Below, piece after piece: positions 4,009 through 22,276 of a DNA stretch of 64,000 bases. The stretch comes from Woeseiaceae bacterium. Its GTDB lineage: Bacteria; Pseudomonadota; Gammaproteobacteria; Steroidobacterales; Woeseiaceae. The stretch lies in assembly GCA_013042375.1 (NCBI GenBank), contig JABDQH010000073.1, forward strand, positions 1 through 64,000, written 5' to 3'. The translations under genes and the position numbers were made by a program. Each line of letters starts with the position of its first letter. The stretch's first letter is position 1. The notes beneath the pieces were generated by a model. That model was not told the origin of the DNA. It searched no databases and saw only the letters and a program-made list of their open reading frames with translations.

Positions 4009-4785
4009 ATGAACGCCTTTCATATCTATAAGTCTCGCCCGCGGGTCGCCGCGCTCGGCATGCTCTGTGCGCTTGCCACGCTCGGGCAGACTGCTTGTGC
4101 TTCACCGACGCATCTCCCCGATCGCAGCAACTACGCGGCGCCGCGGGCAGCGGTCGCGCCCGTGGTCGATGGCGTAGCGGCCGATGCCGCCTGGGAACAG
4201 GCCCCCTGGCAGGACATCGGGCATCGCTGGCTTGGACCCGAGTATTCCGCCACGGACTTCAAGGGCCGCTTCAAGATGGTCTGGACCGAAGAGCGCATCT
4301 ACCTGCTCGCCGAGATCGTCGACGACATCCTGATCGACTCGCACCGCGACCCGCTGCTGCAGTACTGGGACGACGACTGCCTCGAGATCTTTATCGACGA
4401 GGACTTCTCGGGCGGCGAGCACCACTTCAATCACAACGCGTTCGCCTACCACTTTTCGCTCGACAACCAGGCGATCGATATCGGCACGGACCGCAAGGCC
4501 CGCAGCTATTCTCACCACACAGAGAGCCAGTGGTGGCAGCACGGTGACACGGTCATCTGGGAGGTCAGCATCGATATTTACGACGACAGCTACGTGGACG
4601 GCGGTGACAACGACCCGGTCGCGCTGGTTGCCGGCAAGGTCATCGGCCTGATGGTCGCCTATTGCGACAACGACGGCAGCGAGCTCAGGGAGAATTTCAT
4701 TGGCTCGGAGTCGGTCCCGACCGGCGCCAAGGACAGGGGCTACATCGACGCCGGCCTGTTCGGCAAGGTGGTGCTTGATGAGTAG
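4009..4785 (+). CDS. Secreted CBM9-like carbohydrate-binding protein
   Basis: 258 residues. The N-terminus is a signal peptide with a hydrophobic core and AC-ASP near residues 30-33. It could be a lipoprotein, but the lipobox is poor (QTAC). The mature part has the CBM9-type pattern of DOMON-fold sugar-binding proteins: VDGVAADAAWEQAPW, then FKMVWTEERIYLLAEIVD, then WDDDCLEIFIDEDF, and late GLMVAYCDNDG. No catalytic residues are recognisable. It is the first gene of the rightward operon and overlaps the next gene by 8 bases. It probably binds glucan or oligosaccharide in the periplasm or at the surface. Confidence 0.85.
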   Translation: MNAFHIYKSRPRVAALGMLCALATLGQTACASPTHLPDRSNYAAPRAAVAPVVDGVAADAAWEQAPWQDIGHRWLGPEYSATDFKGRFKMVWTEERIYLLAEIVDDILIDSHRDPLLQYWDDDCLEIFIDEDFSGGEHHFNHNAFAYHFSLDNQAIDIGTDRKARSYSHHTESQWWQHGDTVIWEVSIDIYDDSYVDGGDNDPVALVAGKVIGLMVAYCDNDGSELRENFIGSESVPTGAKDRGYIDAGLFGKVVLDE

Positions 4786-7700
4786 CGTCATGTCTTCGGA
4801 CCAGTTCGCGACGGCTCCAGGCGGAAACGACGTACACGGCGAATTCGTCGATTTCGACGGCGATCGCTACTACGCGATCCGCAACGTCGAAAAGATGGCG
4901 CCTTTTTTCGTCAGCGTCATTTCATCGGACGACCACTGGCTGTTCGTCTCCTCTACCGGCGGCCTGACGGCGGGACGCGTGTCCCCCGAGACGGCGCTGT
5001 TTCCCTACGAAACCGTCGACAAGCTGCATCTCTCGATCAACGATACGGGCCCTAAAACGATCGTCCGCGTTCGCGATGCCGGACGAACGCTTTGCTGGGA
5101 GCCTTTCAACACCGAGCATCGCAGGCGCTTCGCGATCCGGCGCAATCTCTACAAGAGCACGCTCGGCAACAAGCTGTGCTTCGAGGAAATCAACGAGGAA
5201 CTCGGGCTGGCGTTTCGCTATACGTGGTCGACGAGCGAGGAGTTCGGCTTCGTGCGCGACTGCGAGCTGCACAACCTCGGCGCCGGCGACACCGAGGTAG
5301 AAGTCCTCGACGGCGTGCAGAACGTGCTGCCCGCCGGAACGCCGCGGTTCACCCAGACCAACTCGAGCAACCTCGTGAACGCCTACAAGTGGGCGGAAAT
5401 CGATGAGTCCACGGGGCTCGCGTTCCTGGCCCTCTACTCCGGCATCACAGACCGGGCCGAACCCTGCGAGTCCCTGAAGGCGACGACCGTGTTCTGCCTC
5501 GGCGCCGAGAATCCCCGCTACCTCGTATCGTCGTCGCAGCTGGACGCGTTTCGCGCCGGCGCCGACATAGCGCCGGAACGGCACAGGCGCGGCATACGCT
5601 GCGCGTACTTCTGCGTGCAAAGCCTGGCGGTGGCGCCCGGCGAGGCGCACACCTGGCGCACCGTGATCGATGCGGAGCGCGACCAGGCCGAGGTCGTGGC
5701 GCTGCGCCATCGGCTGCGCGAACCCGAGCAGCTCACGAGGGACATCGACACCTCCGTCACCGCCGGGAGTGACGAACTCGCCCGCATCATGGCGGCGGCC
5801 GACGGCTTCCAGTCGACCGCCGAAGAGAACGTCTCCGCTCATCACTACGCCAACGTGCTGTTCAACGTCCTGCGCGGCGGCATCTTCGATGACGCCTACA
5901 CCATCGCGTCGCGCGATTTCCGCAAGACGATTGCGCAGTTCAACGCGCGCGTCGCCGAGCGTAATCGCGAGCTGCTGGCGAACCTGCCGCAGCGCCTGCG
6001 CTACAGGGAACTCCTCGAAGAAACGGACAAGTCGGGCGACGCCCAGCTGCAGCGTCTCGCCCTCGAGTACCTGCCGATCACGTTCGGCCGCCGGCACGGC
6101 GACCCGAGCCGTCCGTGGAACCAGTTTGCGATCGAGCTGAAAGACGAACAGGGAGAGGACCTGCTGTCCTACCAGGGCAACTGGCGCGACATCTTCCAGA
6201 ACTGGGAGGCGCTGGCGCTGAGCTACCCGGCGTTCGTCGAGAGCATGATTGCCAAGTTTGTCAACGCATCGACGGCCGACGGTTACAACCCCTACAGGAT
6301 CACCAAGGAAGGCATCGACTGGGAAGTCGAGGAGCCCGACAATCCCTGGAGCTACATCGGTTACTGGGGCGATCACCAGATTATCTACCTCCTGAAGCTG
6401 CTCGAACTGTCGCAGGGCTTCCATCCCGACACGCTGCACCAGATGCTGCGCCGGCCGCTGTTCTGCTACGCCAACGTGCCCTACCACATCAAGTCGTTCG
6501 AGCTGCTCGTCGAAGACCCGAAGAAGACCGTCGTTTACGACGAGGACCTCGCCAATACGATCGATGAGCGCGTGGCCTCGTTGGGCGCAGATGGCAAGCT
6601 GCTGCTCGACGACAGCGGGGACGTCCGCCAGGTCAATCTTCTCGAGAAACTGCTGGTGCCGCTGCTCGCGAAGCTGGGCAACCTGGTCGTCGATGGCGGT
6701 ATCTGGCTCAACACGCAGCGCCCCGAATGGAACGACGCGAACAACGCGCTGGTCGGCCAGGGGCTGTCGATGGTCACGCTGTATTACCTGCGGCGCTACC
6801 TGCGCTTCCTGCAGGAACTGCTCGACGAGGAGCAGGACGGCTTCGCGGTGTCCGCGCCCGTCGTCGAATGGCACCGCGCTACCGCCAAGGCACTGCAAAG
6901 CCTGCGGCAACAAGTCGACAAGAACGCGATCGACGACGAGGCGCGCCGCAGCTCGCTCGCGGCTCTCGGCGAGCCTGCTTCTGCCTATCGCGAATCGCTG
7001 TACTCGCGCGACGATCTCGACGCGCCTGTCGACCTTGCGGTGGACGAGATTCGCGCCATGCTCGCCGACGCGCTGGCCGTCACGGACCGCAGCATTGCGT
7101 CCAACAAGCGCGAGGACGGCCTGTATCACGCCTACAATATCGCCGACTTCGACGGGGACAGGCTGGGTGTCGAGCATCTCTACCCGATGCTGGAAGGCCA
7201 GGTCGCGGCGCTGAGCGCCGGCGCCGTGCCGGCGGCCGAGGCTGTCGACGTGCTCGAGGCCCTGTACGAGAGCGCCGTCTACCGCGCCGACCAGGATAGC
7301 TTCATGCTTTACCCCGACCGCGAGCTGCCCGGCTTCCTGGAGCGCAACCGCGTGCCCGAGGAGCGCGTCATGTCGATCCCGCTGCTGCGCGACATGCTTG
7401 ACGCGGGCGACACGCGGCTAATGCTGCGCGATGCCGACGGCGACATTCGCTTCAATGCCGACTTCCAGAATGCCGGCGATGTCCGTGAGACACTGCACGC
7501 AGTCAGAGCCGATTACGGCGACAAGGTTGCCGCGGCCCGGCGCGACGTCCTGGCGCTTTATGAAACGGTCTTCGACCACAAGGCCTTCACCGGCCGCTCC
7601 GGGACCATGTTCGGCTACGAGGGGCTTGGTTCCATCTACTGGCACATGGTGTCGAAGCTGCTCGTGGCCGTCGCGGAGAACTTCGTCGCAGCGCTCGATG

Positions 7701-8254
7701 ACGATGCGGACGAAGCAACCATCCAGAAGCTCGGTGAGCTTTATTACCGGGTGCGCATAGGCATCGGCTTCAACAAGACGCCGCTGGAGTACGGGGCGTT
7801 CCCGGTGGACCCCTACTCGCACACGCCGCAACATGCCGGTGCGCGTCAGCCCGGCATGACCGGCCAGGTCAAGGAAGAAATCCTGACGCGCTTCATCGAA
7901 CTCGGCATCCGGGTACGCAGCGGCGAGGTGTCGATCGAACCGGCGCTGCTGCGTCGCCGCGAGTTCGCCGATGCCGCCCGCAGCTTCCGCTATCTGGATG
8001 TCGACAAGAACTGGCAGACGCTCGAACTGCCGGCCGCCAGCCTCGCGTTCACCTGGTGCCAGGTCCCGTTCGTCTATGTGCTGCAGGACGGCGGCGCGAT
8101 CCCCGGGCTCGACATCGAGTTCGCCGACGGCACGTCTTCGCACTTCGAGACAGCCGGGCTGCCCGCGGAACTCGGTACCGCATTATTCGAACGAACGGGC
8201 CGCATCCGCACGGTCACTGTCACCGTCATAGCGGATACGTTGTTCGCCGACTAG
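4778..8254 (+). CDS. Large GH94/GH149/GH161-like protein, putative beta-1,3-glucan phosphorylase
   Basis: 1158 residues from the ATG at 4778, which has AAGGTGG about 8 bases upstream and overlaps the preceding stop. There is no signal peptide, so it is cytosolic. The N-terminal third looks like a beta-sandwich (WLFVSSTGGLTAGRV, KTIVRVRDAGRTLCWEPF). The middle looks like an alpha/alpha barrel: GNWRDIFQ at 467-474, YIGYWGDHQ, and PEWNDANNALVGQG with EWND at 650-653. The last resembles the DWND active-site motif of GH94 phosphorylases. Length, lack of export and the adjacent cytosolic GH17 suggest the beta-1,3-glucan phosphorylase families GH149/GH161, which act on laminarioligosaccharides to yield glucose-1-phosphate. 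The family call is from memory of motifs. A non-phosphorolytic GH94-related enzyme is possible. Confidence 0.6.
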   Translation: MSSVMSSDQFATAPGGNDVHGEFVDFDGDRYYAIRNVEKMAPFFVSVISSDDHWLFVSSTGGLTAGRVSPETALFPYETVDKLHLSINDTGPKTIVRVRDAGRTLCWEPFNTEHRRRFAIRRNLYKSTLGNKLCFEEINEELGLAFRYTWSTSEEFGFVRDCELHNLGAGDTEVEVLDGVQNVLPAGTPRFTQTNSSNLVNAYKWAEIDESTGLAFLALYSGITDRAEPCESLKATTVFCLGAENPRYLVSSSQLDAFRAGADIAPERHRRGIRCAYFCVQSLAVAPGEAHTWRTVIDAERDQAEVVALRHRLREPEQLTRDIDTSVTAGSDELARIMAAADGFQSTAEENVSAHHYANVLFNVLRGGIFDDAYTIASRDFRKTIAQFNARVAERNRELLANLPQRLRYRELLEETDKSGDAQLQRLALEYLPITFGRRHGDPSRPWNQFAIELKDEQGEDLLSYQGNWRDIFQNWEALALSYPAFVESMIAKFVNASTADGYNPYRITKEGIDWEVEEPDNPWSYIGYWGDHQIIYLLKLLELSQGFHPDTLHQMLRRPLFCYANVPYHIKSFELLVEDPKKTVVYDEDLANTIDERVASLGADGKLLLDDSGDVRQVNLLEKLLVPLLAKLGNLVVDGGIWLNTQRPEWNDANNALVGQGLSMVTLYYLRRYLRFLQELLDEEQDGFAVSAPVVEWHRATAKALQSLRQQVDKNAIDDEARRSSLAALGEPASAYRESLYSRDDLDAPVDLAVDEIRAMLADALAVTDRSIASNKREDGLYHAYNIADFDGDRLGVEHLYPMLEGQVAALSAGAVPAAEAVDVLEALYESAVYRADQDSFMLYPDRELPGFLERNRVPEERVMSIPLLRDMLDAGDTRLMLRDADGDIRFNADFQNAGDVRETLHAVRADYGDKVAAARRDVLALYETVFDHKAFTGRSGTMFGYEGLGSIYWHMVSKLLVAVAENFVAALDDDADEATIQKLGELYYRVRIGIGFNKTPLEYGAFPVDPYSHTPQHAGARQPGMTGQVKEEILTRFIELGIRVRSGEVSIEPALLRRREFADAARSFRYLDVDKNWQTLELPAASLAFTWCQVPFVYVLQDGGAIPGLDIEFADGTSSHFETAGLPAELGTALFERTGRIRTVTVTVIADTLFAD

Positions 8255-8273: not shown

Positions 8274-9161
8274 ATGTCACAACTCTACAAACGGCGCATG
8301 TCGCTGGCCGGCATCGACGTATCGTCAATGAGCACCGACGAGCTTCGCGCCCTTGTCCTGAAGATCCTCGAGGCAAAGATCCACGGGCTGTCGTTCAGCC
8401 CCTACACCGAAGGCCAGGGGCCGGGGGCGATCGTCACGGAGGCGCAAATACGCGAACGGCTGGCCGTTATCGAACCCTATGTTCGCTGGATCCGCACGTT
8501 TTCCTGTACCGACGGTCACGAACTGATTCCCGCGATTGCCCGCGAAAAGGGCATCAAGACCATGGTCGGCGTGTGGCTGGACGACGACCACGAGCACAAC
8601 GAACTCGAACTCGAGAACGCGATCCGCGTCGCCAAGGAAGGCCACGTCGATATTCTCGGCGTCGGCAACGAGGTGCTGCTGCGCGGCGAACTGTCCGAGG
8701 ACGAGCTGCTCGACTACATCAATCGCGCCAAACAGGCGCTGCCCGGTGTCGAGATCGGTTACGTCGATGCCTATTTCGAGTTTTCGGTGCACCCGCGCAT
8801 CACCGAGGCCTGCGACGTCCTGCTCGCCAACTGCTACCCGTTCTGGGAGGGCTGCTCTGCCGAACACGCGCTCCTGTACATGAAAGAAATGTATCGCGCC
8901 GCGCAGGGTGCCGGGGGCGGCAAGCGCGTCATCATCAGCGAAACCGGGTGGCCGAACATCGGCACCGCGGAAGGCGCGGCAGTGCCTTCCTATGAAAACG
9001 CGATCAAGTATTTTGTCGACACCTGCCAATGGGCCGAGGCCGAGGGTATCGAGATCTTCTACTTTTCCTCGTTCGACGAGGCCTGGAAAGTCGCTGCGGA
9101 AGGAGACGTCGGCGCCTACTGGGGGCTGTGGGACAAGGACGGCAAGCCCAAGTACTGGTGA
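8274..9161 (+). CDS. Cytosolic GH17 family glucanase/transglycosylase
   Basis: 295 residues with no signal peptide. GH17 fold signatures are clear: GLSFSPYTEGQGP near the start, the acid/base motif GVGNEVL (Glu133), an ANCYPFW strand, and the nucleophile motif ISETGWP (Glu223). GH17 enzymes cleave or transfer beta-1,3-glucan chains. It begins 19 bases after the putative phosphorylase and is followed 36 bases later by the LacI gene. A GH17 without export is unusual. It may shorten imported oligosaccharides, or transfer them, to feed the neighbouring phosphorylase or GH3. Confidence 0.88.
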   Translation: MSQLYKRRMSLAGIDVSSMSTDELRALVLKILEAKIHGLSFSPYTEGQGPGAIVTEAQIRERLAVIEPYVRWIRTFSCTDGHELIPAIAREKGIKTMVGVWLDDDHEHNELELENAIRVAKEGHVDILGVGNEVLLRGELSEDELLDYINRAKQALPGVEIGYVDAYFEFSVHPRITEACDVLLANCYPFWEGCSAEHALLYMKEMYRAAQGAGGGKRVIISETGWPNIGTAEGAAVPSYENAIKYFVDTCQWAEAEGIEIFYFSSFDEAWKVAAEGDVGAYWGLWDKDGKPKYW

Positions 9162-9197: not shown

Positions 9198-10244
9198 ATG
9201 CCCAGACCGACAATAGACGACGTTGCTACGCTGGCCGGCGTGTCGATAAAGACCGTCTCGCGCGTCGTCAACCGCGAACCGAACGTACGCGAGTCGACGC
9301 GGGAAAAGGTCGAAAAGGCGATCGCCGAACTCGACTATCGACCGAATACGTCGGCGCAGAATCTCGCGAGTCATCGCGCCCACCTGATCGTGCTGGTCTA
9401 TGACGATCCGGCTGCCTACGAGACCCCGAGCTCCGGCTACATCATCAGGATGCAGCAGGGCGCCCTCAAGGCATGCCGCGATGCCGGCTTCGAATTACTC
9501 ATATATCCGTGCAATTTCCGCCGTCAAGATGTGGGCAGGGAGTTGCAGAACCTGATTTACCGGGTACGCCCGGCCGGCATCATCGTCGCGGCGCCGCTGT
9601 CGAACATGCCCGCAATCGTTGGCGCCGTGAAAGAGACGGGCACGCCGTATGTCCGACTCGCGCACGGTACCAAAAATGGCAAGGAGTACTCCGTGGTCAC
9701 CAACGATCGCGAGTACAGCGCCGACATGACAAAGTACCTGGCCTCGCTCGGACATGAGCGTATCGCCTTCATCAAGGGCGATGTGCGACACAGGGCCGTT
9801 GGCAATCGATTCGACGGGTACCGGGACGGCCTCGAGGAAGCCGGGCTGCCCTATCGCGAGGAACTGGTCGCGCAGGGCGATAACTCGGTCGGTTCGGGCG
9901 AAGAATGCGCGGCCGAGTTGTTAGCGCGATCCCCTCGCCCGACCGCAATCTTCTGCGCCAATGACGACATGGCGGCAGGTGTCCTGCGCGTCGCGACACG
10001 ACTCGGTATTCGCGTGCCGGACCAGCTCTCGATTGCGGGTTGCGACGACATCGCGCTGACGCGGCAGCTGTATCCATCGCTGACGACGATCCGGCAACCG
10101 CTTGGCGCCATGGCCGAAGCGGCCTCCCTCGCGCTCATTGACGACTCGCGAGGCAAGCCGCGCGAGCCTCAGCTGGAGGTCATTGCCGGCAAGATCGAAA
10201 TTCGCGAATCGACGGCGCCACCGGCAGAGGCGGACGGGGCCTAG
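9198..10244 (+). CDS. LacI-family transcriptional regulator of the glucan locus
   Basis: 348 residues. The N-terminal helix-turn-helix reads TIDDVATLAGVSIKTVSRVVN, followed by the hinge-type YRPNTSAQNLASHR. The periplasmic-binding-protein-like sugar-sensing domain ends with TAIFCANDDMAAG and SIAGCDDIALTRQLYPSLTTIRQP, both standard for the family. It is the last gene of the rightward operon. Its stop overlaps, in CTAG, the stop of the convergent glycosidase operon. LacI-type palindromes occur at 3854, 3888, 19884 and 26112, which makes it the obvious candidate repressor, with self-control through the 3854 site. The inducing sugar is unknown, probably a glucan oligosaccharide or glucose phosphate. 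Confidence 0.95.
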   Translation: MPRPTIDDVATLAGVSIKTVSRVVNREPNVRESTREKVEKAIAELDYRPNTSAQNLASHRAHLIVLVYDDPAAYETPSSGYIIRMQQGALKACRDAGFELLIYPCNFRRQDVGRELQNLIYRVRPAGIIVAAPLSNMPAIVGAVKETGTPYVRLAHGTKNGKEYSVVTNDREYSADMTKYLASLGHERIAFIKGDVRHRAVGNRFDGYRDGLEEAGLPYREELVAQGDNSVGSGEECAAELLARSPRPTAIFCANDDMAAGVLRVATRLGIRVPDQLSIAGCDDIALTRQLYPSLTTIRQPLGAMAEAASLALIDDSRGKPREPQLEVIAGKIEIRESTAPPAEADGA

Positions 10245-12019
10245 CGGACGTAGCGAATGCTATCGAGGTAGATCGTGACGGGCGAGCGCCTGCCCTCCAG
10301 CGCAACCACGAAGCCGGTCTTGAGGCTCGTCAGGTCCTTGCGCTTGAGGTCGATCTCGAAGCGTTGCCACTCGTCCGTCAGCGCAAAGGTGCTGGTCTGG
10401 ACGATCGCCGAATCCGGGTAATCAGTATCGCTGCCGTTGAGACCCACGCCGAAATTGACCTTCTCCCCGCCGTACTCGCCGCGTGCATAGAACTCGAGCT
10501 TGCCGGCTCCGGTCAGGTCGAAGCCGCCGTCCTGGCTACCCCAGTTGTTGGGCGGATGCTGCCAGGCAATGCCCGCCCAGCCGAGCGTGCCCGTGTAGCG
10601 CATCCGGATCGCGTGCTCCCCCTCGTGGACGTCGTCCGCGAATTCCCCGTCGAGACTCAAGGCCTCGATGTTACCCATCCATCCCGAGGGCACCCAGGGC
10701 ATGTACTCGAAGCGGTCCTCGTAAACGGCCACCGGCATGCGCGGCCGCACCTCGCCTTTGACGAGCAGCGGGACGTTGGCCGTGGCGGCATTGCCGGCCG
10801 GATCGTAGGCGTAAGCGAACAACCGATAGGGACCGGGTTCATCGGGCATCTGAATCGTGGCCTTGCCGCCATCTGCCTCGAGCACTGCGCCCTCGATGTC
10901 GGGCAGCTGCGGGCGGAAGTCGCCGCCGGTCAGGTACTCGCCGGACTCGGGTCGCAGGAACCACCGCAAAGTGACCGGCTGGCCCTGCGGATCGCCGACA
11001 CGCGTACGTGCCTCAAATGTCGCACCAGGATCCAGCTTCGCATCCGTATCGATGACGATCGGCTCGATGGTCGGCGACGGGTCGGCCGGGGGCTCGCCCG
11101 ACCACAGTTCGGCCATGACATCAACAGCGCCGAGCTTGGCCCCGTCGTCGAGCGTCATGCCGAACCACGTCGCCGTGCCTTCCATCTTTGCGCCCCACAG
11201 GAACGCGTAGGCGCCGAGGGACTGGCCGCCCGACTCGAGCACGGCATTCTCGTAGCTTCGCCGGTAGAAATCGGCTTTTTCCGTGCTGGTCTGCTCGTAG
11301 GGAGCATCCCAGTCCGTCGTCGGCATCTCCCACGGTCCCACCGGTCCGAACTCCGTGATCACGTAAGGCTTGGTCCCGCCGCCCTCGCGCAGGCGCTCGG
11401 CGACCGACGGCGCACCACCGTAGGAATTGATGCCGTGAATGTCGATCGACGGGCTGCGCGCGTGCACCGACTCGATGCGCCCGCCGCCGAGCTCGGCCGT
11501 CACGGTCATCGTGGGGTGCTGCGGGTCGAGTTCCTTGACCATGGCGGCGACCTCGTTGACCGCGGCCCAGATGAGCGGGTCGTCGCCCGACTCGAAGCCC
11601 TCCATCTCGTTGCCGATGCCCCACAACAGCAGCGCGGGATGGTCACGCCAGGCGAGCACGGCTTCACGCGCGCTCTGCAGCTGGGCCTCGACCTGCTGCG
11701 GATCACGATAGTCGAAGCCGTGGCGCTCGTGGCCGAGCCAGATGCCGAGCGTGACGGTCATGCCGAGGCGGTGCGCCTCGTCGAGAATCTCGCCGGCGCC
11801 GTCGGCGCTCCAGGTGCGCACCGAGTTGGCGCCCGCGGCCGCGAGGCGTTGCAGCGGGCCGCTGCCGCCGGCACCACGAATCAGGTAGGGCTCGCCACCG
11901 CGCAGCAGCTGCCAGCCTTCTTCAGTTTCCCGCAGCTCAACGGGAACGGCCTCCGCCCCTACCACGCCTGGCAAGAGCAAGAGGCCGAGATACAGGTGCC
12001 TCAGGATCCGATTGAGCAC
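10241..12019 (-). CDS. Secreted clan GH-A glycoside hydrolase with C-terminal binding module
   Basis: 592 residues starting at GTG 12019, which shares one base with the upstream stop (TAGTG). A signal peptide (1-24) precedes a GH2-type TIM barrel: acid/base in WGIGNEMEG (Glu138), nucleophile in VITEFGPVG (Glu223). An Ig-like segment follows (about 320-420), then a C-terminal beta-sandwich (about 425-592) with DRFEYMPWVPSGWMGN, GKLEFYARG and YLDSIRYV, typical of carbohydrate-binding modules. The GH2 jelly-roll domains are absent, so it is not a classical GH2. The exact CAZy family is not certain. As the last gene of the GH16-led operon it probably acts on beta-glucan in the periplasm or at the surface. 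Confidence 0.85.
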   Translation of the reverse strand: MLNRILRHLYLGLLLLPGVVGAEAVPVELRETEEGWQLLRGGEPYLIRGAGGSGPLQRLAAAGANSVRTWSADGAGEILDEAHRLGMTVTLGIWLGHERHGFDYRDPQQVEAQLQSAREAVLAWRDHPALLLWGIGNEMEGFESGDDPLIWAAVNEVAAMVKELDPQHPTMTVTAELGGGRIESVHARSPSIDIHGINSYGGAPSVAERLREGGGTKPYVITEFGPVGPWEMPTTDWDAPYEQTSTEKADFYRRSYENAVLESGGQSLGAYAFLWGAKMEGTATWFGMTLDDGAKLGAVDVMAELWSGEPPADPSPTIEPIVIDTDAKLDPGATFEARTRVGDPQGQPVTLRWFLRPESGEYLTGGDFRPQLPDIEGAVLEADGGKATIQMPDEPGPYRLFAYAYDPAGNAATANVPLLVKGEVRPRMPVAVYEDRFEYMPWVPSGWMGNIEALSLDGEFADDVHEGEHAIRMRYTGTLGWAGIAWQHPPNNWGSQDGGFDLTGAGKLEFYARGEYGGEKVNFGVGLNGSDTDYPDSAIVQTSTFALTDEWQRFEIDLKRKDLTSLKTGFVVALEGRRSPVTIYLDSIRYVR

Positions 12020-12729
12020 TATCCCCCGACGGGAATGACGAGGCCGTCATCGAACAACGGCGGGGTGGCCGGCTCGTAGATGAATCCCCATCCAAGGAGC
12101 AGTTCAATCACGTTGCTCGGGTCACCGTCGACGAGGCGCCTGAAGCCCGTGGCTTCGGTTCGATACAGGTCGTCCGCCGCTCTCTCGTTCAGCGTCACGG
12201 GACCGAACTCGAAGACCGTAAACGACCCGTAGAAGATCTGGAGCACGGCTTGATACGCCTTCAGCGCCTGGTTGCGGATCAGCTCGTCGCTGTTGGCGTC
12301 GAACAATTCGTGCAGGGCCCGTGCCGTGTACCACTGGTTCTCGCCCGACGGTTGCCGCGCCAGCGCGGTTGCCCACAGGTAGAATCGTGCCTTGGCGCCC
12401 GTCGGTCCGGCGGGGATTGCGTTATTCAGCTCGAACTTGGACGGGCCATCCGGATCGTTGACGTTGAATTCGAACGTCGGGATGAACGCGTACGGATTCG
12501 CCGGGTCCTCGAGGACGCAGGTCTCGAAGCCGACGCCGACCTCGGCACAGGCGAGATTCAGGAGCGTGTCCGTGGGCAGGACGACCTCGTTGAAGAGGGT
12601 GCCGTCGCTGTCGCTCGGCGATTCGCAGCCGCCGGCCAGTAATGCCGCAAGCCCGAGCATCATCGGTGCCAGCAATCTCGTGCGCCACGGGGTGCCTTTG
12701 TATCGATTGAGGTTTTTCATGGTTTTCAT
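12019..12729 (-). CDS. Lipoprotein of unknown function in the glucan operon
   Basis: 236 residues. The lipoprotein signal ends LLAGGC with Cys35. The mature part begins with an acidic linker (SPSDSDG). It contains NLACAEVGVGFETCVLEDP, whose Cys pair may form a disulfide, and then a mostly helical stretch (KARFYLWATALARQPSGENQWYTARALHELFDANSDELIRNQALKAYQAVLQ, given as separate pieces of one region at about 110-165). I do not recognise the family. It lies between the barrel-fused glycosidase and the secreted glycosidase, 25 bases after the former, and overlaps the latter by one base. Co-expression suggests a helper at the membrane, for example a periplasmic partner of the barrel protein. Confidence 0.85.
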   Translation of the reverse strand: MKTMKNLNRYKGTPWRTRLLAPMMLGLAALLAGGCESPSDSDGTLFNEVVLPTDTLLNLACAEVGVGFETCVLEDPANPYAFIPTFEFNVNDPDGPSKFELNNAIPAGPTGAKARFYLWATALARQPSGENQWYTARALHELFDANSDELIRNQALKAYQAVLQIFYGSFTVFEFGPVTLNERAADDLYRTEATGFRRLVDGDPSNVIELLLGWGFIYEPATPPLFDDGLVIPVGG

Positions 12730-12754: not shown

Positions 12755-15700
12755 TCAGAACTGGTACGTGAAGTACAGCACTGTCATGAAGATGTGGCCT
12801 CCTTCGAGTACCGGGTCCAGGTCCGAGTTCTCGTCGCCCGAACGGTATAGCGCGCGGATGCCGACCCTGGTCGCCTCCGCCTCGCCGACCGCCGACACGA
12901 AGCCACCGGCGTTACCGCCGAGGAGGATCGAGTAGTCGAGCTTGACCTGCTCGGGGTAGGTCGTGTTGAACTGCCGGTTGAAGTCGTACGGGCCCCAGGC
13001 GTCTTTCTTGTAGTAGCCCCGGAATGTGTGGCGGCCGCCGATGACGGCCTTCCAGTCGAATGTCCAGTAGTCGCGCGTGCCGCCTTCCGGCTCACCGGTC
13101 GACTGGTTGAAGCCCCTGACGATTTTCGTAATGAGCTTGTGCCCGGGCTTCGGATTGAAGACCATGCGACTCTGCACTGTCCACACGTCTTCCGCCGGCA
13201 GGCCCCGGCCGAAGGACGAGTTGGTTTCGAGCTCGGAGAGGAAGAACAGGTTTGCGTCCGTCGCCGTCGGGAACTCGGTGTAACCGCCGCCGAAGTCGAT
13301 CGCGAACTCGGCATCCTCTCGCCATTCGTTGTCCCAGGCGTAGAACTGGGTGGCACCCGTCGGATCATAGGTGACAAACAACTCGGCGGAGCGGGCCTCA
13401 CGATTGTCGAGCACGGCGAACGGATCGTTGTCCCGATCACGCGGGGATATGCCGGGAGACACCGCGCCGCCTCCGCCGGGAACCGGCAGGATGAACGGGT
13501 TCGCGTCCACGAGGTTGTCGCGATACATGAGGCGCGGGAAGACCATGAAATTGCCGAATTGCATGATCATGCCGGCTTCGTACTCGCGCTTGTTGCCGAG
13601 ACCCGAGTAAGGCAGGACGCTCGGATCGAAGACGCCGAAGACCTTGTGGTGCGCGCCGCCGTCGGCCACCAGGCCGGCATGGTGCGCCGAAACGTAGGTC
13701 TCGTTGCCCCACAGGGGCAGCGTCAGCTTCGCCTTGAAGCCGAGCGTGTCCTGGAAGTCGATCTTGTCGAGGAGCACGTCGCCATTGTCGCCTATGCGCG
13801 TGTACACGTCGTCGGCCTTCTCGGTGGCCGACATGATGCCGCCGAGTTCCAGCTTCCAGCCGTTCGAGAACGTGCGTTCAGCGAACAGCGTGGTCTGGCG
13901 CGACTGGCGCTCGGTTGCCTGCGTGGCGCTCGCGCCCTCACCGGAGCGGGCCACGTCCTCGGAATGGATGAAGGTCCAGTCGAACTTGCCTAATTTGAAG
14001 TCGTACTTGACAACGAATTTGGGGTTGGCGCCCCAGTACACCTCGGGGCCGAAGAGCAGGCGCAGGTTCTTGAACTTGTTCTTGCCCTGGATCTCGATGC
14101 CTTCGGGAGCCTTGGCGTTCCAGATGTCCGAGCCGTAGGTGTCGGTCGCTTCGCGCACCAGGCCGAAGAAGTCACCCTCGTAGCCCCAGTGAAAGCGCGG
14201 CGTGTGATAGAAGGCCGTGAGATCGAAATCTGCACCCTTGTACGTCGCCTCGAAGTCGTAGATCTCGACACGCTCGCCGCTGCTCAGGTCCGTCCGGCGA
14301 ATGAGTTCGATGGGCTCGTCAGTGCCGATATCAAGCTCGACCACGTCAAAGCCGACGAAGGGAAGCCCGCGATCGCCGTAGACGAACTCGAGCGGCTGTT
14401 TGTTGGCGACGTTGCCGAGGACGTTCAGCGTGAACTGTCCTTCGAGGTCCTGCGTCGGCTGGAATTCGAAGTCCAGGAACACCATCTGGCCGTCCTCGAA
14501 CGTGATGCCGTCCTCACCTTCCTCATCGGTGCTCACCTCGGAGCCGCGCATGACGAATTCGGCCTGCACCCTGCCGCTCTTGAAACCCAGCTTGGCCTTG
14601 CCCTCTTCAACCTCGCTCTTGAGCTGGCGCACCTCGCCCTTGAGCTCGAGGTAGTCCATGTTCATGTCGTTGATGGCCTGGTTGAACGCCGCTTTCTTGT
14701 TCAGGTACGGGTCCATGCCCCAGATGTCTTTCAACACGTCGTACGCCATGCGGGGGCGCGCCGTGTAGACGCCGTCGGAATTGGGCGTACCGAGGGCGGC
14801 GATACCGAACCACTCCTCGTTCATGTTGTTCTTGCCTTCTGCCCAGTCGAAAAGATAGGCCTGGTTGGACCACGAGGCATTATTGTCCTGCGTGTCGAGG
14901 TTTTCCTCCTGCAGGTACTTCCACCACTCGTCGCGCCATTCGAAGACGTAGCCGCCGATCGAGTTGCCTTCCTCGCCGTTGCCCCACGCCTTGTTGTACA
15001 TCTCCTGCCACTGGTCCTTGAGCAGCCGTGCCTGCGAAACCTGGTCCTCGCGGAATTCGCGGGCATTAAAGGCGTCGGAGCCGAACTCGAAGAACATGAC
15101 CGGCAGGTCCAGTTTCTCGTCGACCTCCTTCCACAGCGTCGTGAAGCTCGGGCCGCGGTAGACGTTGCTGCCGAGGATGTCGAGGTCCGGCATCAGCTCG
15201 GCGATCAGGTCGATGTACTGGACGTCGCCGTTGACGATCGTGAACGGCACGTGCGGCGCAATTGCCTTGCCGTCCTTGATGACCTCGTTGAAGAGGCTGT
15301 AGAGATACCGCGCCTTGGCCGTATTCTGCTCACCCTCGGGGAGGTTCTCGATCTCGAAGCTCGACCACGACAGGCCGTAGTTGCTCTCATTGCCGAATGC
15401 GAACATCAGGACGCCCGGCGTGTCCTTGTAGCGGTTGACGATCTCGAGCATGTCGGCCTTGAGCGTCGCTCGCGTCAGCGGATCCGAGTAGTCGGTAAAC
15501 GGAACCCACTTACCCCCGATGTTGTAGCCGTAGCGGCCCATCAGCGGGTTCACGACGAACATGATGCCGTGCTCTTTGTAGATGTAGGTGACCCACTTCG
15601 GCGGGATCATCGCGAAACTGCGAATGGAGTTGACGTTGGCCGCCTTCAGAAGGCCCATGTCGTAGTCGAGGACATCGCGGATGTGGTCGTCGGGCTCGCC

Positions 15701-15928
15701 CCACAGGTTGTAGGAGTAATTCTGGCCTCGCGGCGAGTAACTCCAGACAACGCCTTTGGCATAGAAGTCCTGGCCGTTGACCTGGAGCCTCCAGCCGTTT
15801 TCGTCCTTCACCGTCGTGACGACATCGGCCGCCTGCGCGGGCGCGCCGTACGACAAAAGAATGACGACGCTCAGAGCGATGACACTGAGGAGACTCATCA
15901 GCCTCCTGGTAGTTTTCGTTCCCGTCAT
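12755..15928 (-). CDS. Glycoside hydrolase fused to an outer-membrane beta-barrel
   Basis: 1057 residues from the ATG at 15928, chosen because it places a clean signal peptide (about 1-34) at the N-terminus. An in-frame GTG at 16003 overlaps the upstream stop and is an alternative start. Residues about 35-405 are a clan GH-A TIM barrel with acid/base in MFAFGNESN (Glu181) and nucleophile in MFFEFGSDAF (Glu281). A predicted coiled coil follows (about 408-446, ELKGEVRQLKSEVEEGKAKL). Residues about 450-1057 are rich in alternating aromatic/polar strands and end in MTVLYFTYQF, an outer-membrane barrel terminal signature. Length and order suggest an enzyme tethered to its own porin-like barrel. 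It lies between the CBM lipoprotein and another lipoprotein in the GH16 operon. The barrel family is not identified. Confidence 0.85.
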   Translation of the reverse strand: MTGTKTTRRLMSLLSVIALSVVILLSYGAPAQAADVVTTVKDENGWRLQVNGQDFYAKGVVWSYSPRGQNYSYNLWGEPDDHIRDVLDYDMGLLKAANVNSIRSFAMIPPKWVTYIYKEHGIMFVVNPLMGRYGYNIGGKWVPFTDYSDPLTRATLKADMLEIVNRYKDTPGVLMFAFGNESNYGLSWSSFEIENLPEGEQNTAKARYLYSLFNEVIKDGKAIAPHVPFTIVNGDVQYIDLIAELMPDLDILGSNVYRGPSFTTLWKEVDEKLDLPVMFFEFGSDAFNAREFREDQVSQARLLKDQWQEMYNKAWGNGEEGNSIGGYVFEWRDEWWKYLQEENLDTQDNNASWSNQAYLFDWAEGKNNMNEEWFGIAALGTPNSDGVYTARPRMAYDVLKDIWGMDPYLNKKAAFNQAINDMNMDYLELKGEVRQLKSEVEEGKAKLGFKSGRVQAEFVMRGSEVSTDEEGEDGITFEDGQMVFLDFEFQPTQDLEGQFTLNVLGNVANKQPLEFVYGDRGLPFVGFDVVELDIGTDEPIELIRRTDLSSGERVEIYDFEATYKGADFDLTAFYHTPRFHWGYEGDFFGLVREATDTYGSDIWNAKAPEGIEIQGKNKFKNLRLLFGPEVYWGANPKFVVKYDFKLGKFDWTFIHSEDVARSGEGASATQATERQSRQTTLFAERTFSNGWKLELGGIMSATEKADDVYTRIGDNGDVLLDKIDFQDTLGFKAKLTLPLWGNETYVSAHHAGLVADGGAHHKVFGVFDPSVLPYSGLGNKREYEAGMIMQFGNFMVFPRLMYRDNLVDANPFILPVPGGGGAVSPGISPRDRDNDPFAVLDNREARSAELFVTYDPTGATQFYAWDNEWREDAEFAIDFGGGYTEFPTATDANLFFLSELETNSSFGRGLPAEDVWTVQSRMVFNPKPGHKLITKIVRGFNQSTGEPEGGTRDYWTFDWKAVIGGRHTFRGYYKKDAWGPYDFNRQFNTTYPEQVKLDYSILLGGNAGGFVSAVGEAEATRVGIRALYRSGDENSDLDPVLEGGHIFMTVLYFTYQF

Positions 15929-15999: not shown

Positions 16000-18795
16000 T
16001 CACGGGTTAATCACGAAGGTGACGTTGTCGAAGTAGGCGTCTACTCCACAAGCAGGGTCCCCGCCACAAGCCGCCTTCAGCTGCAGCGTTACACCGCCGC
16101 TCACATCGCGTCCTGTTTCACCGGCGGCATTCGTTCCAGCGGTCACAGTGCCCGAATAAGTCATCCAGGTTGCCGACGGGAAGTAGGGGTCTGGCGGGCC
16201 GACGAAATCCCGGTCTCCCACATCTTCGCCAGCGGCATTCAGGAAAATCACTTCGACGAATACGACACCGCCGGCCCCTGCCAGGGACCCGTACAGATCG
16301 AAGGAAACATCGATAGCATCGCCCTGCTGGACTACACCTGCGGCCAGGGCGACCTGGCTCAGGAGGACGTCTTGCGGGGCCGCAGTGGTTCGCAGCCTGC
16401 CGAAGGTGCCTGTGCGACCATCCAACGTATCGGACTCGATAGTGATGGTTCCGTTGTCACCCAATGTCCAACCGGTAAAGTCGCCGGTTTCGAAATCACC
16501 GTTGACGAAGGTACCGTCGCCGCCGCCACCGGCGCCGCCACCGGCACCGGAGTTACTGAAGCCGACATCGGTCAGCAGGAATACAAACGCGGCATCGCCC
16601 TGGTCACCCGGCGGTCCGATCAGCCAGCCAGTGTGGCTGTCGATGTTCTCCTGGAAGCTGAACTCCGCCAGCGGGATTTCCAGCTGGAACCAGCCATCGC
16701 CCAGGTCCGTTGCACCCGCGTACGTGGCCAGATCCACTGTCGCGACACTGTCATCACCGCCGCCAATCAGCTTGACCTCAACGGTGCCCAGCGGCGAGCC
16801 CTTCACCTTCGCGTTGAAGGTGTCGTAGCCGGCTGCGATCGGGTTGGCGTAACCATTGACCGCCAGGAACGCCACCCAGGCATCAGGACCGTAACCGTTG
16901 CCGGCCGTGACCGCGATCACCGGGTCATACGTCGAATCCGCAAACTCGAAGTCGAAGCTCGCGCCGGAACCAAAGGTCTGCGGTCCGGAAACATCCGCTA
17001 TAAAGTCGGGGATCGCGACGTCCGCCGGTGCCGACGTACCGAACAGTACGAAGTCCGGCGTGATGCCAGCGTCACCGCCACCATCGGCACTGCTGAAGCC
17101 GACGTCGGTCACCAGGAAGACAAATGCAGCATCGCCCTGGTCGCCCGGCGGCCCGATCAGCCAGCCGGTGTGACCGTCGATGTTCTCCTGGAAGGTGAAC
17201 TCCGAGAGCGGAATCTCCAGCTGGAACCAGCCATCGCCCAGATCCGTTGCACCCGCGTACGTGGCCAGATCCACTGTCGCAACACTGTCATCGCCGTTGC
17301 CGATCAGCTTGACCTCAATGGTGCCCAGCGGCGAACCCTTGACCTTCGCGTTGAAGGTGTCGTAGCCGGCCGCAATGGGGTTGGCGTAGCCATTGACCGC
17401 CAGGAACGCTACCCAGAGATCCGGGCCGTAGCCGTTGCCGGCCGTAACCGCAATCACCGGGTCATAGGTCGAGTCCGCGAACTCGAAGTCGAAGCTCGCG
17501 CCCGAACCAAAGGTCTGCGGTCCGGAAACATCCGCTACAAAGTCGGGGATCGGAACGTCCGCCGGTGCCGACGTACCGAACAGCACAAAGTCCGGCGTGA
17601 TACCGGCGCCGGGGCCGCCACCGCCACTGTCAACGGCGTTGAACGTGATGTCATCGAGGTAAACGACGTTGTCCGCCGCACGGGCGTCAAAGTCGGGGAA
17701 GATCACCAACCCCGTGATATCGGTGTTGTTCGGGTCGCCGATCACGCCAGAGAAATCGAACTCCAGCTCCTCCCACTGATCAACCACCGTGTTTGGCACC
17801 AGGATCTCGCCCGTCGAACCCGTCGCGGCATCTTCGAACTTGATACCGACGTTACTGATGACCGACTTCCATACTTTGATCCTGACGATCGCGTTGCTGG
17901 CGTCCAGCGTGAACGTCGGCAAGTCCTGGGTTACGAAGCCAGCGAACGGCTGACCTGCCTGCCTGGCCGTAAACTGGGCCACACGGGCCGAGGTGTTGGC
18001 ACCGCTCGCATCCGGGTTATCGATTACCAGGAGCGGCGGATTGTCGTCGTTTTCGAACACGGTCCAGGCGAAGGCTTCGCCCTGGCCGTCTACTTCAAAG
18101 TCCACCGGCCCAAGCGTCGCAGGACCAGGGCCAGGGCCGCCGCCATCACCGCAGCTCTCGACCTGCGTGATCTCGTCGTAGTAGAAGGTCCAGTCGTCCG
18201 GGTTGACCGCGGCATCGCCGAGCTCGTTCACGTCGAAGATGAAGGTAATGCCGGTCACGGGCGCGCCACCGGCCGCCGTTCCCGTGAAGTCGAAGCACAG
18301 CTCTTCCCACGAGCTGCTGCCGGACTGGTTGGCGACGCGCTCCTGGCCCAGGCCCTCGAGCTTGAAGTTGATCGGAACGTCGCGCGATGCCCAGACCAGC
18401 ATCGTAAACGCCTCGCCCTCGGAGAAGTCGAAGCCCTGCGGCAGCTGCAGCGTACTGCCGCCGAAGGTCTTGCCGGACTCGGCCCTGAATTTCTGCATCT
18501 GCACGACCTTTTCGGTCGCGTTCAGGCCGCTCATGTCCGGGTTGTCGATGATGAGGCTTACACCGCCCTCGAAGCCGGGCTCGTTCCCGCCGCCTACAAA
18601 ATCGAACGGGCCGCAGACATCCTCGAAGTTGATGACGTCGCAGAAGCCCTCGGGGATCGGATCCGGCGGCGGCGCCGGCGTTCCGGCGAGCGGTGTCGGT
18701 CCAGAGCCCTCGCCATAGAAGCAGCCCGTCAATACGAGGGCAGGAAGTAAGGACGTCAGTGCGCGTGGCACGCGTTTGTCTACGCTAAAAAACAT
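16000..18795 (-). CDS. Multi-domain surface carbohydrate-binding lipoprotein
   Basis: 931 residues. The lipoprotein signal ends VLTGC (Cys25), followed by a Pro-rich linker. At least five beta-sandwich modules follow: about 50-215; about 225-390; two near-identical modules at about 397-567 and 576-746; and a C-terminal CBM4/9-like module beginning VNGDFETGDFTGWTLGDNG (about 760-931). Gly/Asp-rich linkers separate them. No catalytic motif is seen. It starts 60 bases after the GH16 gene and its stop overlaps the alternative GTG of the barrel-fusion gene. The architecture fits a surface glycan-binding protein that captures glucan chains for GH16 and the TonB receptor. Confidence 0.88.
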   Translation of the reverse strand: MFFSVDKRVPRALTSLLPALVLTGCFYGEGSGPTPLAGTPAPPPDPIPEGFCDVINFEDVCGPFDFVGGGNEPGFEGGVSLIIDNPDMSGLNATEKVVQMQKFRAESGKTFGGSTLQLPQGFDFSEGEAFTMLVWASRDVPINFKLEGLGQERVANQSGSSSWEELCFDFTGTAAGGAPVTGITFIFDVNELGDAAVNPDDWTFYYDEITQVESCGDGGGPGPGPATLGPVDFEVDGQGEAFAWTVFENDDNPPLLVIDNPDASGANTSARVAQFTARQAGQPFAGFVTQDLPTFTLDASNAIVRIKVWKSVISNVGIKFEDAATGSTGEILVPNTVVDQWEELEFDFSGVIGDPNNTDITGLVIFPDFDARAADNVVYLDDITFNAVDSGGGGPGAGITPDFVLFGTSAPADVPIPDFVADVSGPQTFGSGASFDFEFADSTYDPVIAVTAGNGYGPDLWVAFLAVNGYANPIAAGYDTFNAKVKGSPLGTIEVKLIGNGDDSVATVDLATYAGATDLGDGWFQLEIPLSEFTFQENIDGHTGWLIGPPGDQGDAAFVFLVTDVGFSSADGGGDAGITPDFVLFGTSAPADVAIPDFIADVSGPQTFGSGASFDFEFADSTYDPVIAVTAGNGYGPDAWVAFLAVNGYANPIAAGYDTFNAKVKGSPLGTVEVKLIGGGDDSVATVDLATYAGATDLGDGWFQLEIPLAEFSFQENIDSHTGWLIGPPGDQGDAAFVFLLTDVGFSNSGAGGGAGGGGDGTFVNGDFETGDFTGWTLGDNGTITIESDTLDGRTGTFGRLRTTAAPQDVLLSQVALAAGVVQQGDAIDVSFDLYGSLAGAGGVVFVEVIFLNAAGEDVGDRDFVGPPDPYFPSATWMTYSGTVTAGTNAAGETGRDVSGGVTLQLKAACGGDPACGVDAYFDNVTFVINP
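16559..17070 (-). repeat. Tandem module repeat, downstream copy
   Basis: About 512 bases closely matching 17096-17607 with a period of 537 bases (179 codons). It encodes the second of two near-identical binding modules, both containing ADSTYDPVIAVTAGNGYGPD and WLIGPPGDQGDAAFVFL. Differences are scattered, many at third codon positions. Confidence 0.9.
17096..17607 (-). repeat. Tandem module repeat, upstream copy
   Basis: First-translated copy of the 512-base duplicated module. The protein copies differ at only a few positions (for example PDLWVAF versus PDAWVAF, and GNGDDS versus GGGDDS). Confidence 0.9.
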
Positions 18796-18855: not shown

Positions 18856-19803
18856 CTACTGGGGTGCGCCCGAGTAAACCCGGACCCAGTCGACTTCCAT
18901 CGTGGCCGGGAACACCGTGTCTGCGTTGGGTGGCCCGGGCAAATTGCCGCCGACCGCGACGTTGAAGATGATGTAAAAGGGCACATCGAAGGGCGCCGGG
19001 AATGGGCTCGTCGAATACCAATTGTTCTTCATCGCGTACATCACGTCATCGACGTACCAGCGAACCTCGTCCGCGTCCCATTCGACGGCGTAAACGTGGA
19101 ACTCTTCCTGGGCATTGGCAGGCACGACGTACGACGTGGTATCGAACACCCAGTCATCAGGGAAGCTGGTGCCGTAGTGGATCGTGCCGATGATGGAGTT
19201 CTTACCAAAGACGCCCAGGTTGTAGGCCTCCATGATGTCGATCTCGCCGGCGGCGGGCCAGATACCGTAGGGGCTGTCCTGAGACAGCAACCAGAATGCC
19301 GGCCAGATACCCTGCCCGCCCGGCAGCCGCATACGCGCCTCGATGCGGCCGTAACGGAAGGCGAAGCGATCGCGCGTGTTGATGCGCGCCGACGTGTAGT
19401 CGAAGCGCCCGATCGATTGCTTGCGGGCCTCGATCTTCAACAGCCCGTCCTCGAGCCGCGCGTTGTCGGGCAGGTAGTACTCGAGCTCGTTGTTGCCCCA
19501 CCCGGGGATGCCGTACTCGCTGCCGTCACCGGTTTCGAACAACCACCTACCGGGGTCGAGCGCGTCGCCGTTGAATTCGTCGCTCCAGACGAGGGTCGGG
19601 GCGACTCCCTCGACCACTTCGAGGTTGTTGGCGACCGTCAGGATCGGAACGCTGGTGTTGACGTTCGATTGCGCCGGGACCACGGGGTCAGGCGCGACCT
19701 CGACAGCGGAGTAAAGAATCGGCGGTTCACCGGTATCGCAGCCAACAAGCAACACGCCAGTCGCGAGCAGCGCGACACTCAGTCTTGATACATGCAAATG
19801 CAT
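18856..19803 (-). CDS. GH16 laminarinase-type endo-beta-1,3-glucanase lipoprotein
   Basis: 315 residues from the ATG at 19803, which has GGGGG nine bases upstream. A GTG at 19827 is a weaker alternative. The lipoprotein signal ends LLVGC (Cys22). The catalytic domain spans about 70-315 with LVWSDEFNG, WGNNELEYY, INTRDRFAFRYGRIEAR and the GH16 signature GEIDIMEA: nucleophile Glu187, Asp189, acid/base Glu192. The extra Met in the signature is the beta-bulge form typical of laminarinases and bacterial endo-1,3(4)-glucanases. The C-terminus FPATMEVDWVRVY is also standard. It leads the five-gene leftward operon and probably makes the first cut in the glucan at the cell surface. Confidence 0.95.
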   Translation of the reverse strand: MHLHVSRLSVALLATGVLLVGCDTGEPPILYSAVEVAPDPVVPAQSNVNTSVPILTVANNLEVVEGVAPTLVWSDEFNGDALDPGRWLFETGDGSEYGIPGWGNNELEYYLPDNARLEDGLLKIEARKQSIGRFDYTSARINTRDRFAFRYGRIEARMRLPGGQGIWPAFWLLSQDSPYGIWPAAGEIDIMEAYNLGVFGKNSIIGTIHYGTSFPDDWVFDTTSYVVPANAQEEFHVYAVEWDADEVRWYVDDVMYAMKNNWYSTSPFPAPFDVPFYIIFNVAVGGNLPGPPNADTVFPATMEVDWVRVYSGAPQ

Positions 19804-19869
19804 TCTCGTATTCCCCCGGGATTGCACGGAACTGGTTATTTTGAGACTAACTTTTTCTTGTAAGCATAC

Positions 19870-21256: not shown

Positions 21257-22276
21257 TTACTGCATGACGAGCTTGGGGGTGCGATCGACAAAGAAGATAC
21301 CCCAGTGCTTCTCCGCACCGTCCTCATTGTCCGGGTCGCCCTTCCAGGGCTCGTCGAACGCCTCGAAGAAAAACACGCTCACGTTGGCTGCCGTCGCCCA
21401 GTCGAGGAGCTCGCGGTAGTAGCGCGCCTGGTTCTCCTCGCTCGCCTCGCCGGGGAACTCCTCGGCCGTAGTGGCCCAGCCGGCCTCGAGAATGGCGATC
21501 GGCTTGTCCGGCAGTGCCGCGTGCACGCCCTCGATATTCTCGATCGTGTACGACAGGCCCTCGTCGATCGTCTTGTCCTCCCACGCCGCGTACGTGTGCA
21601 CGCCGAGAAAGTCGACGACCTCGGCCAGCGGCGCGCCGTCCGCTATCCACCACTCGTAGTTATCGGCGACGGTCACGGGTTGCGTCGTCGCCGCCTTTAC
21701 ATGGCGGACGTACTCGATGACGCGCTCGAGCGGCACCATGTGATCGTTCCATTCGACGAGCGCCTCGTTGCCGACGTTGATGGCGACGACGATGTCGTCG
21801 TACTCGTTGGCAAGCTCGATGGCCTGCTCGATCTCCTCGCCGTTCTTGACCGCGTTCGCCGCCAGTTCTTCGTCAGGAATAGGCTCGTCGAGCCACGGGC
21901 AGCCTTCGTGATTGCTGAACTCAGCGTCCAGCCAGATGCCGAGCAGCACCTTGACCGGCAGCTCGTGCTCGCGGATCAGCTCGAGCGTCGTGACCGTATT
22001 CTCCTTGCTGTCGTACATGCGGATCAGGTTGAAATCGTGGTCCACGAGGATCTGCAGGTCCTCGAGAATCTCTTCCTGGCTCGGGTTGTTGGCGCCCGCG
22101 CCGCGGTCGGGATGTTGTCCTCCGCGAAAGCCCGAATAGGACATCGCCATGACCTCACCCTGCAACAGGGCGTCGGGTGCTTGTGTGAAATCAGCGTCGG
22201 CCGGCGACGAGTCATCGGATGTGGAACAGGCAGTAGTCATAAGCGCAAGACCCAGCAATACAGGTAGTTTGTTCAT
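21257..22276 (-). CDS. GH17 family lipoprotein, periplasmic or surface glucanase
   Basis: 339 residues from the ATG at 22276, whose ATGA overlaps the stop of the sugar porter. The frame stays open further upstream, but that stretch is antisense-like and Arg-rich and lies inside the porter gene. The signal is lipoprotein-like, ending MTTAC (Cys17). Acid/base is in NVGNEALVEWND (Glu171), nucleophile in AILEAGWAT (Glu264), with GFRGGQHPDRG near the start as in bacterial GH17. It would trim beta-1,3-glucan oligosaccharides after import. With the cytosolic copy at 8274 the locus has two GH17 proteins in different compartments. Confidence 0.9.
   Translation of the reverse strand: MNKLPVLLGLALMTTACSTSDDSSPADADFTQAPDALLQGEVMAMSYSGFRGGQHPDRGAGANNPSQEEILEDLQILVDHDFNLIRMYDSKENTVTTLELIREHELPVKVLLGIWLDAEFSNHEGCPWLDEPIPDEELAANAVKNGEEIEQAIELANEYDDIVVAINVGNEALVEWNDHMVPLERVIEYVRHVKAATTQPVTVADNYEWWIADGAPLAEVVDFLGVHTYAAWEDKTIDEGLSYTIENIEGVHAALPDKPIAILEAGWATTAEEFPGEASEENQARYYRELLDWATAANVSVFFFEAFDEPWKGDPDNEDGAEKHWGIFFVDRTPKLVMQ

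Follow-up and report, generated by a model that had tools for sequence, protein, structure and literature searches.

A glycoside hydrolase fused to a predicted outer-membrane beta-barrel in bacterial laminarin loci

We analyzed a 64,000-nucleotide stretch of a Woeseiaceae contig (the window) and find that it encodes, on the minus strand at 12755..15928, a 1057-amino-acid protein (counted from ATG 15928) in which a glycoside hydrolase (GH) is joined to a predicted outer-membrane beta-barrel. The chain begins with a signal peptide, followed by a GH domain (residues 36-410), a helix (residues 424-444) and a C-terminal region from residue 448. Judged by its occurrence across genomes, this fusion is a regular part of laminarin loci and no curiosity. 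We consider it fairly probable that the protein is an outer-membrane channel-hydrolase for beta-1,3-glucan oligosaccharides, with the GH tethered on the periplasmic side so that passage is followed by cleavage. The folds of this model are predicted; membrane orientation, sugar conduction, substrate and order of events are what we infer.

The original prediction placed a GH-barrel fusion at these coordinates without stating a strand. The open reading frame is real and is found on the minus strand; read as plus, 12755-15928 is broken by stops. Three in-frame starts are present (GTG 16003, ATG 15982 and ATG 15928); residues are numbered from the last, and the true start may lie upstream at ATG 15982 or at GTG 16003, where the sequence GTGA overlaps the upstream gene's stop codon. 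The gene is single-copy in its source genome, which is 84% complete. A scan for homologs, using one genome per species, yielded at least 80 loci. Among the loci listed, at least 43 hold full-length fused frames, a count that includes the window and one duplicate, and isolates are among them. Carriers are Woeseiaceae, other Gammaproteobacteria, Mariprofundus, Flavobacteriaceae, a Lewinellaceae MAG, Cloacimonadota and a spirochaete MAG. A profile of the barrel matches 69/349 Flavobacteriaceae genomes, nearly always in frames longer than 1030 amino acids, as well as 17/125 genomes in the phylum of the Cloacimonadota locus and 4/339 sampled Gammaproteobacteria genomes. It is on these counts that we call the fusion a regular locus part, and the suggestion that this domain order is not a standard component of glucan loci does not stand. 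The same distribution bears on whether the frame is an assembly or annotation join of two neighboring genes, an idea whose probability is close to nil. Nothing was found in its support, one gene split by an apparent frameshift (L090) being the nearest thing to it, and because full-length fusions recur in independent genomes of several phyla, isolates among them, we rule it out.

Relatives consisting of the GH alone are also found. In a tree of the GH part they are interspersed with fused forms in Bacteroidota, requiring at least 7-11 changes. In two of them (L027 and L068) the linker is kept and is then followed by a stop; this state speaks for the barrel having been lost repeatedly. No barrel remnants were detected by tblastn behind GH-only genes. 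Nor was a barrel of the same close family established without its GH in Flavobacteriaceae or the sampled Gammaproteobacteria; the short barrel frames that we looked at were contig ends, fragments or frameshifts such as that in L090. Three Bacteroidales GH-only relatives (L067, L074 and L077) are extended at the C-terminus by a further domain of about 270 residues.

The GH domain (14699..15823, minus strand) is predicted to adopt a clan GH-A TIM barrel. An alignment of the GH part from 34 sequences shows N180-E181 and E281 to be invariant, and the two glutamates align with E137 and E220 of BuGH158. We therefore predict Glu181 (15386..15388) as the acid/base and Glu281 (15086..15088) as the nucleophile, in agreement with the clan-A barrel and catalytic pair proposed originally. 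The Asn-Glu acid/base motif, the second glutamate and the predicted fold together place the domain in clan GH-A. A fold search with the domain returned GH158 and GH157 enzymes at the top, with 11-23% identity in the structural alignments. Both families consist of endo-beta-1,3-glucanases, which for GH157 agrees with the laminari-oligosaccharide complexes named in structure titles. A profile of 34 relatives searched against the PDB gave GH158 first (6pal, E 7e-12; 9oro, E 4.5e-9), followed by GH2 enzymes. These profile values cover the domain partially and single-sequence phmmer gives E 0.005-0.07, compared with E 1e-100 for the true GH158 next door, so we do not assign the domain to GH158; by profile and fold it is a clan GH-A relative near GH157 and GH158. 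Nor do we place it in GH2, as it scores 13.8 bits with the Pfam GH2 TIM model against a cut-off of 21 and starts, in the predicted fold, at residue 36 without the usual GH2 N-terminal sandwich domains. We predict activity on beta-1,3-glucan of the GH157/GH158 kind. In BuGH158, mutation of E137 and E220, the catalytic residues, abolished activity (PMC7157763).

By its gene content, the surrounding locus is a laminarin (beta-1,3/1,6-glucan) locus. Its gene order is GH149, GH17, LacI, GH158, small lipoprotein, fusion, CBM-like lipoprotein, GH16, LysR, GH17, MFS and GH3. On the plus strand lie a GH149 beta-1,3-glucan phosphorylase (4700..8254; 1692 bits, cut-off 1150), a GH17 enzyme (8274..9161, by Pfam) and an annotated LacI-family regulator (9198..10244). 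On the minus strand follow the GH158 enzyme with a weak C-terminal CBM30-like domain (10241..12019) and, beyond the fusion, a multi-repeat lipoprotein with CBM-like repeats (16000..18795; weak Pfam CBM_4_9), whose stop codon overlaps the outermost of the possible starts of the fusion. Pfam further identifies a GH16 lipoprotein that is a predicted laminarinase (18856..19827), a GH17 enzyme (21257..22534), an MFS sugar transporter (22273..23835) and a GH3 beta-glucosidase (23848..26073), all on the minus strand. The true start of this second GH17, which overlaps the MFS gene in the list of open reading frames, is probably further in; the GH17 frame overlapping the MFS end (21257-23835, minus) is the unfused counterpart of a Formosa MFS-GH17 fusion. 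An annotated TonB-dependent receptor (733..3744, minus strand) marks the locus edge. Across the sampled loci, a GH149 homolog is found in at least 60, and many also hold a TonB receptor or SusC. Published Woeseiaceae laminarin loci contain GH3, GH16, GH17, GH149 and GH158 (PMC12175321). ARAGORN calls a tRNA-Thr at 7207-7300 (minus strand), antisense within the GH149 gene; this is probably a false positive.

The C-terminal region (residues 448-1057; 12758..14587, minus strand) was matched in sequence by nothing in Pfam, NCBIfam or the PDB. When residues 443-1057 were folded alone with AlphaFold2, using a 41-sequence alignment, one large barrel resulted (pLDDT 83, pTM 0.80), in which DSSP finds about 22 main strands, rising to 24-26 if two hairpins within the loops also cross the membrane. 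Its fold neighbors in the PDB are AlgE, the OprD/Occ porins, ScrY, LamB, chitoporin and TonB transporters, and the ushers PapC and FimD are among the top ones, aligned over the whole length. The model thus bears out the proposal that the last 600 or so residues close into one barrel, and together with the fold matches it rules out soluble beta-sandwich repeats for this part. With its signal peptide, predicted closed barrel and fold matches, the protein is placed among outer-membrane beta-barrel proteins. It does not appear to be a TonB-dependent transporter or SusC protein, as Pfam finds no Plug and the barrel follows directly after GH and linker. A plugless barrel of 22 strands would be very wide, and the long conserved loops may serve to close it. 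The terminal Phe, put forward originally as an insertion signal, is retained by most relatives in Gammaproteobacteria and Cloacimonadota, but Bacteroidota proteins end otherwise, for example in ...HINIGK.

The best VIA fold match to the barrel, AlgE at Z 16, raises the possibility of an export machine, in which the barrel would secrete beta-glucan and a periplasmic GH would trim it, as in AlgE/AlgK or PgaA/PgaB. The small lipoprotein next to the fusion has a TPR-like appearance, and exporters of this kind include periplasmic TPR parts (PMC9384988). We nevertheless regard export as very unlikely because the locus is catabolic, with its GH149 phosphorylase, GH3, MFS transporter and LacI regulator. 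No polymer synthase turned up among those conserved neighbors that could be identified, and we do not class the protein with exporters of the AlgE/PgaA type.

Another possibility is that the barrel transports nothing and simply tethers the GH to the periplasmic side of the outer membrane. The GH-only versions that persist in many Bacteroidota fit this idea, since their interspersion shows that the enzyme can be kept when the barrel is not, making the barrel dispensable for it. However, a lipid anchor would be far cheaper, and several relatives appear to use one. The barrel is also strongly conserved, with 34 invariant columns in the alignment, several of them within long loops. We therefore think a pure anchor quite improbable and retain the channel-hydrolase as the preferred reading.

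GH and barrel are connected by a linker (residues 424-444; 14597..14659, minus strand). The full-chain model and the linker alignment agree on a single helix of about 21 residues whose heptad-like spacing is confined to proteobacterial members, and Bacteroidota members have a different conserved linker, LMDAVLRARGDKAALGG, instead of the helix. The coiled coil described originally thus holds as a short, coiled-coil-like helix in proteobacterial members and was otherwise overstated. The pTM of the full-chain model is 0.57, too low to fix how GH and barrel are arranged relative to each other.

Orientation can be approached through the loops of the barrel model. In the DSSP assignment, the mean length is 27 residues for loops that follow odd strands and 6 (median 3) for turns that follow even ones. 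Both termini lie on the short-turn side and are therefore expected in the periplasm by the usual turn rule. The fused proteins have ordinary signal peptides; that of the window protein (residues 1-33; 15830..15928, minus strand, cleavage site approximate) has no lipobox in a simple lipobox scan. The same scan finds no lipobox in most GH-only relatives and classifies some as lipoproteins. Considering the turn rule, the plain signal peptides of most GH-only relatives and the fusions of the GH with a small-lipoprotein domain described below, the enzyme most likely resides in the periplasm at the inner mouth of the barrel.

The earlier preference was for an enzyme on the cell surface, either exported by the barrel in the manner of an autotransporter or anchored outside by it. 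An arrangement of signal peptide, passenger, helix and barrel with a C-terminal Phe does resemble a classical autotransporter, and the GH-only lipoproteins are possibly surface-exposed. The translocator of classical (type Va) autotransporters is a C-terminal barrel of about 12 strands and 280 residues, recognized by PF03797. Here, the barrel has about 610 residues and 22 strands, too large for that class, and neither PF03797 nor any other autotransporter family of Pfam matches the fusion protein. Together with the position of both termini and the plain signal peptides, this makes a surface enzyme unlikely in our view. What had been offered as an inverted option, namely a periplasmic enzyme trimming sugar that enters, appears to fit the models best.

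The gene downstream of the fusion provides a further line of evidence. In the window it encodes a small helical lipoprotein (12019..12729, minus strand; lipobox ...LAGGC), belonging to a family that lies 3' of the fusion outside Bacteroidota and has no match in Pfam, NCBIfam or the PDB. It has no Pfam TPR match, its TPR-like character being assigned by eye from the sequence. Among the loci listed, the 3' neighbor is one of two lipoprotein families in all 43 of 43 non-redundant fused loci in which a neighbor is visible, and neither family lies 3' of a GH-only gene in any of 33 loci (0/33), by a hand count from neighbor tables in which related genomes are not independent. The small helical family accounts for 23 loci, all outside Bacteroidota, and a CBM-like family for 20 loci in Bacteroidota. 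The former number includes two barrel ends at contig edges (L004 and L021) and one locus found by profile only (L025). One homolog cluster that lumped the small lipoprotein with GH16 and CBM proteins was divided further. Three gammaproteobacterial GH-only loci, representing two lineages, keep the GH but lack what flanks it on either side, the CBM protein 5' as well as the barrel and the lipoprotein 3'.

Spirochaetes and other genomes of the same phylum contain these parts in other combinations. In the fusion-bearing spirochaete MAG, one protein joins the domain of the small lipoprotein to a distantly related barrel (L094:1631-4048). In this MAG and in other genomes of its phylum, the domain is also found joined to the GH domain (L113:859-2811, L115:6313-8316, and also L117, L118 and L119). 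Spirochaetes also contain unfused, distantly related barrels of 620-651 amino acids (L114:6276-8135 and L120:1843-3795). Their operons further include CBM-like lipoproteins, a LacI-like regulator and, as a gene of its own, a clan GH-A enzyme that matches the GH profile. Counting proteins of the window, L094 and L113 types, fusions among GH, lipoprotein and barrel exist in every pairwise combination. Because spirochaetes join the lipoprotein domain with either the GH or a related barrel, these findings point to the three as one module, and we infer that the downstream lipoprotein is a partner of the fusion. The strict lipoprotein linkage of fused loci and the lipoprotein-domain fusions in spirochaetes are new here.

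Under the channel-hydrolase model, CBM-rich lipoproteins would present glucan outside the cell, where surface enzymes would release oligosaccharides. The C-terminal barrel in the outer membrane would let these through, and the N-terminal GH, held on its short linker at the periplasmic inner mouth, would cut them as they come in, so that immediate cleavage after passage would make entry one-way. The partner lipoprotein would be helical in the window and in most other phyla and CBM-like in Bacteroidota. As a TonB receptor or SusC is also present in many loci, the barrel is possibly not the main importer. There is a real chance that the fusion forms the core of a distinct uptake system. A bolder and more doubtful proposal, which we offer tentatively, is a TonB-independent uptake machine parallel to SusCD, built from three interchangeable parts (the GH, a helical lipoprotein and a large barrel without a plug) together with CBM lipoproteins; hydrolysis at its inner mouth would turn diffusion into one-way entry. 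If true, it would represent a new class of glycan importer in at least four phyla.

Laminarin ranks among the major carbon stores of algae, and models of its uptake are built almost entirely on SusCD and TonB receptors. Here, a widespread gene of laminarin loci, which seems to have been recorded for its GH part only, carries a large predicted barrel absent from the family libraries searched; both this barrel and the small lipoprotein need new family models. Should the barrel conduct oligosaccharides, these would have a second way in, one that costs no energy and is coupled to hydrolysis, and vectorial catalysis at the outer membrane could be studied in a simple experimental system.

The gene may already have appeared in print under another label. 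In Muricauda laminarin PULs, the gene in the corresponding part is listed in the main text as a GH2 beta-glycosidase, with no mention of a barrel (PMC13188888). That gene belongs to the upstream part of a locus that opens with a LuxR-type gene and also has GH16 and GH149; the Allomuricauda locus L045 is alike, the fusion sitting there between a LuxR-type regulator and GH16. By gene content and order, the Muricauda gene is probably the fusion gene. Our search of open full text found no GH fused to an outer-membrane barrel and brought up only MFS-GH17, cytochrome-porins and exopolysaccharide exporters.

Several known systems share individual features with the fusion. In the sucrose porin ScrY, a periplasmic N-terminal coiled coil directly precedes the outer-membrane barrel. 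FapF likewise has an N-terminal coiled coil before its barrel (PMC6173795). Both share with the fusion a helix before the barrel, but carry no enzyme and have smaller barrels. The AlgE/AlgK and PgaA/PgaB exporters combine a barrel with a periplasmic TPR part, and in PgaB with a GH (PMC5933820, PMC9384988); unlike the catabolic window locus, they are export systems with a synthase. BuGH158 (PMC7157763) and LaGH157 resemble the GH domain in giving the best profile (GH158) and fold matches, in their catalytic glutamates and in coming from beta-1,3-glucan loci, yet identity in the structural alignments is low, as noted above, there is no family-level match, and the window has a true GH158 next door. 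Cyc2, a fused cytochrome-porin (PMC8406198), likewise unites a catalytic domain and an outer-membrane porin in one chain, a likeness of description and not of sequence; its catalysis is electron transfer in iron oxidation. A parallel from the same type of locus is the transporter-CAZyme fusion MFS-GH17 (FbGH17B) of Formosa laminarin PULs, which is common in marine Flavobacteriia and for which coupling of hydrolysis and uptake has been proposed (PMC6246565). It too joins a glycoside hydrolase to a membrane transporter, but as an inner-membrane helical transporter with a C-terminal GH17, whereas the window protein is predicted to be an outer-membrane barrel with an N-terminal GH157/158-like domain. 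The one-way uptake suggested here for the outer membrane would follow the same logic as that proposed for Formosa MFS-GH17 (PMC6246565).
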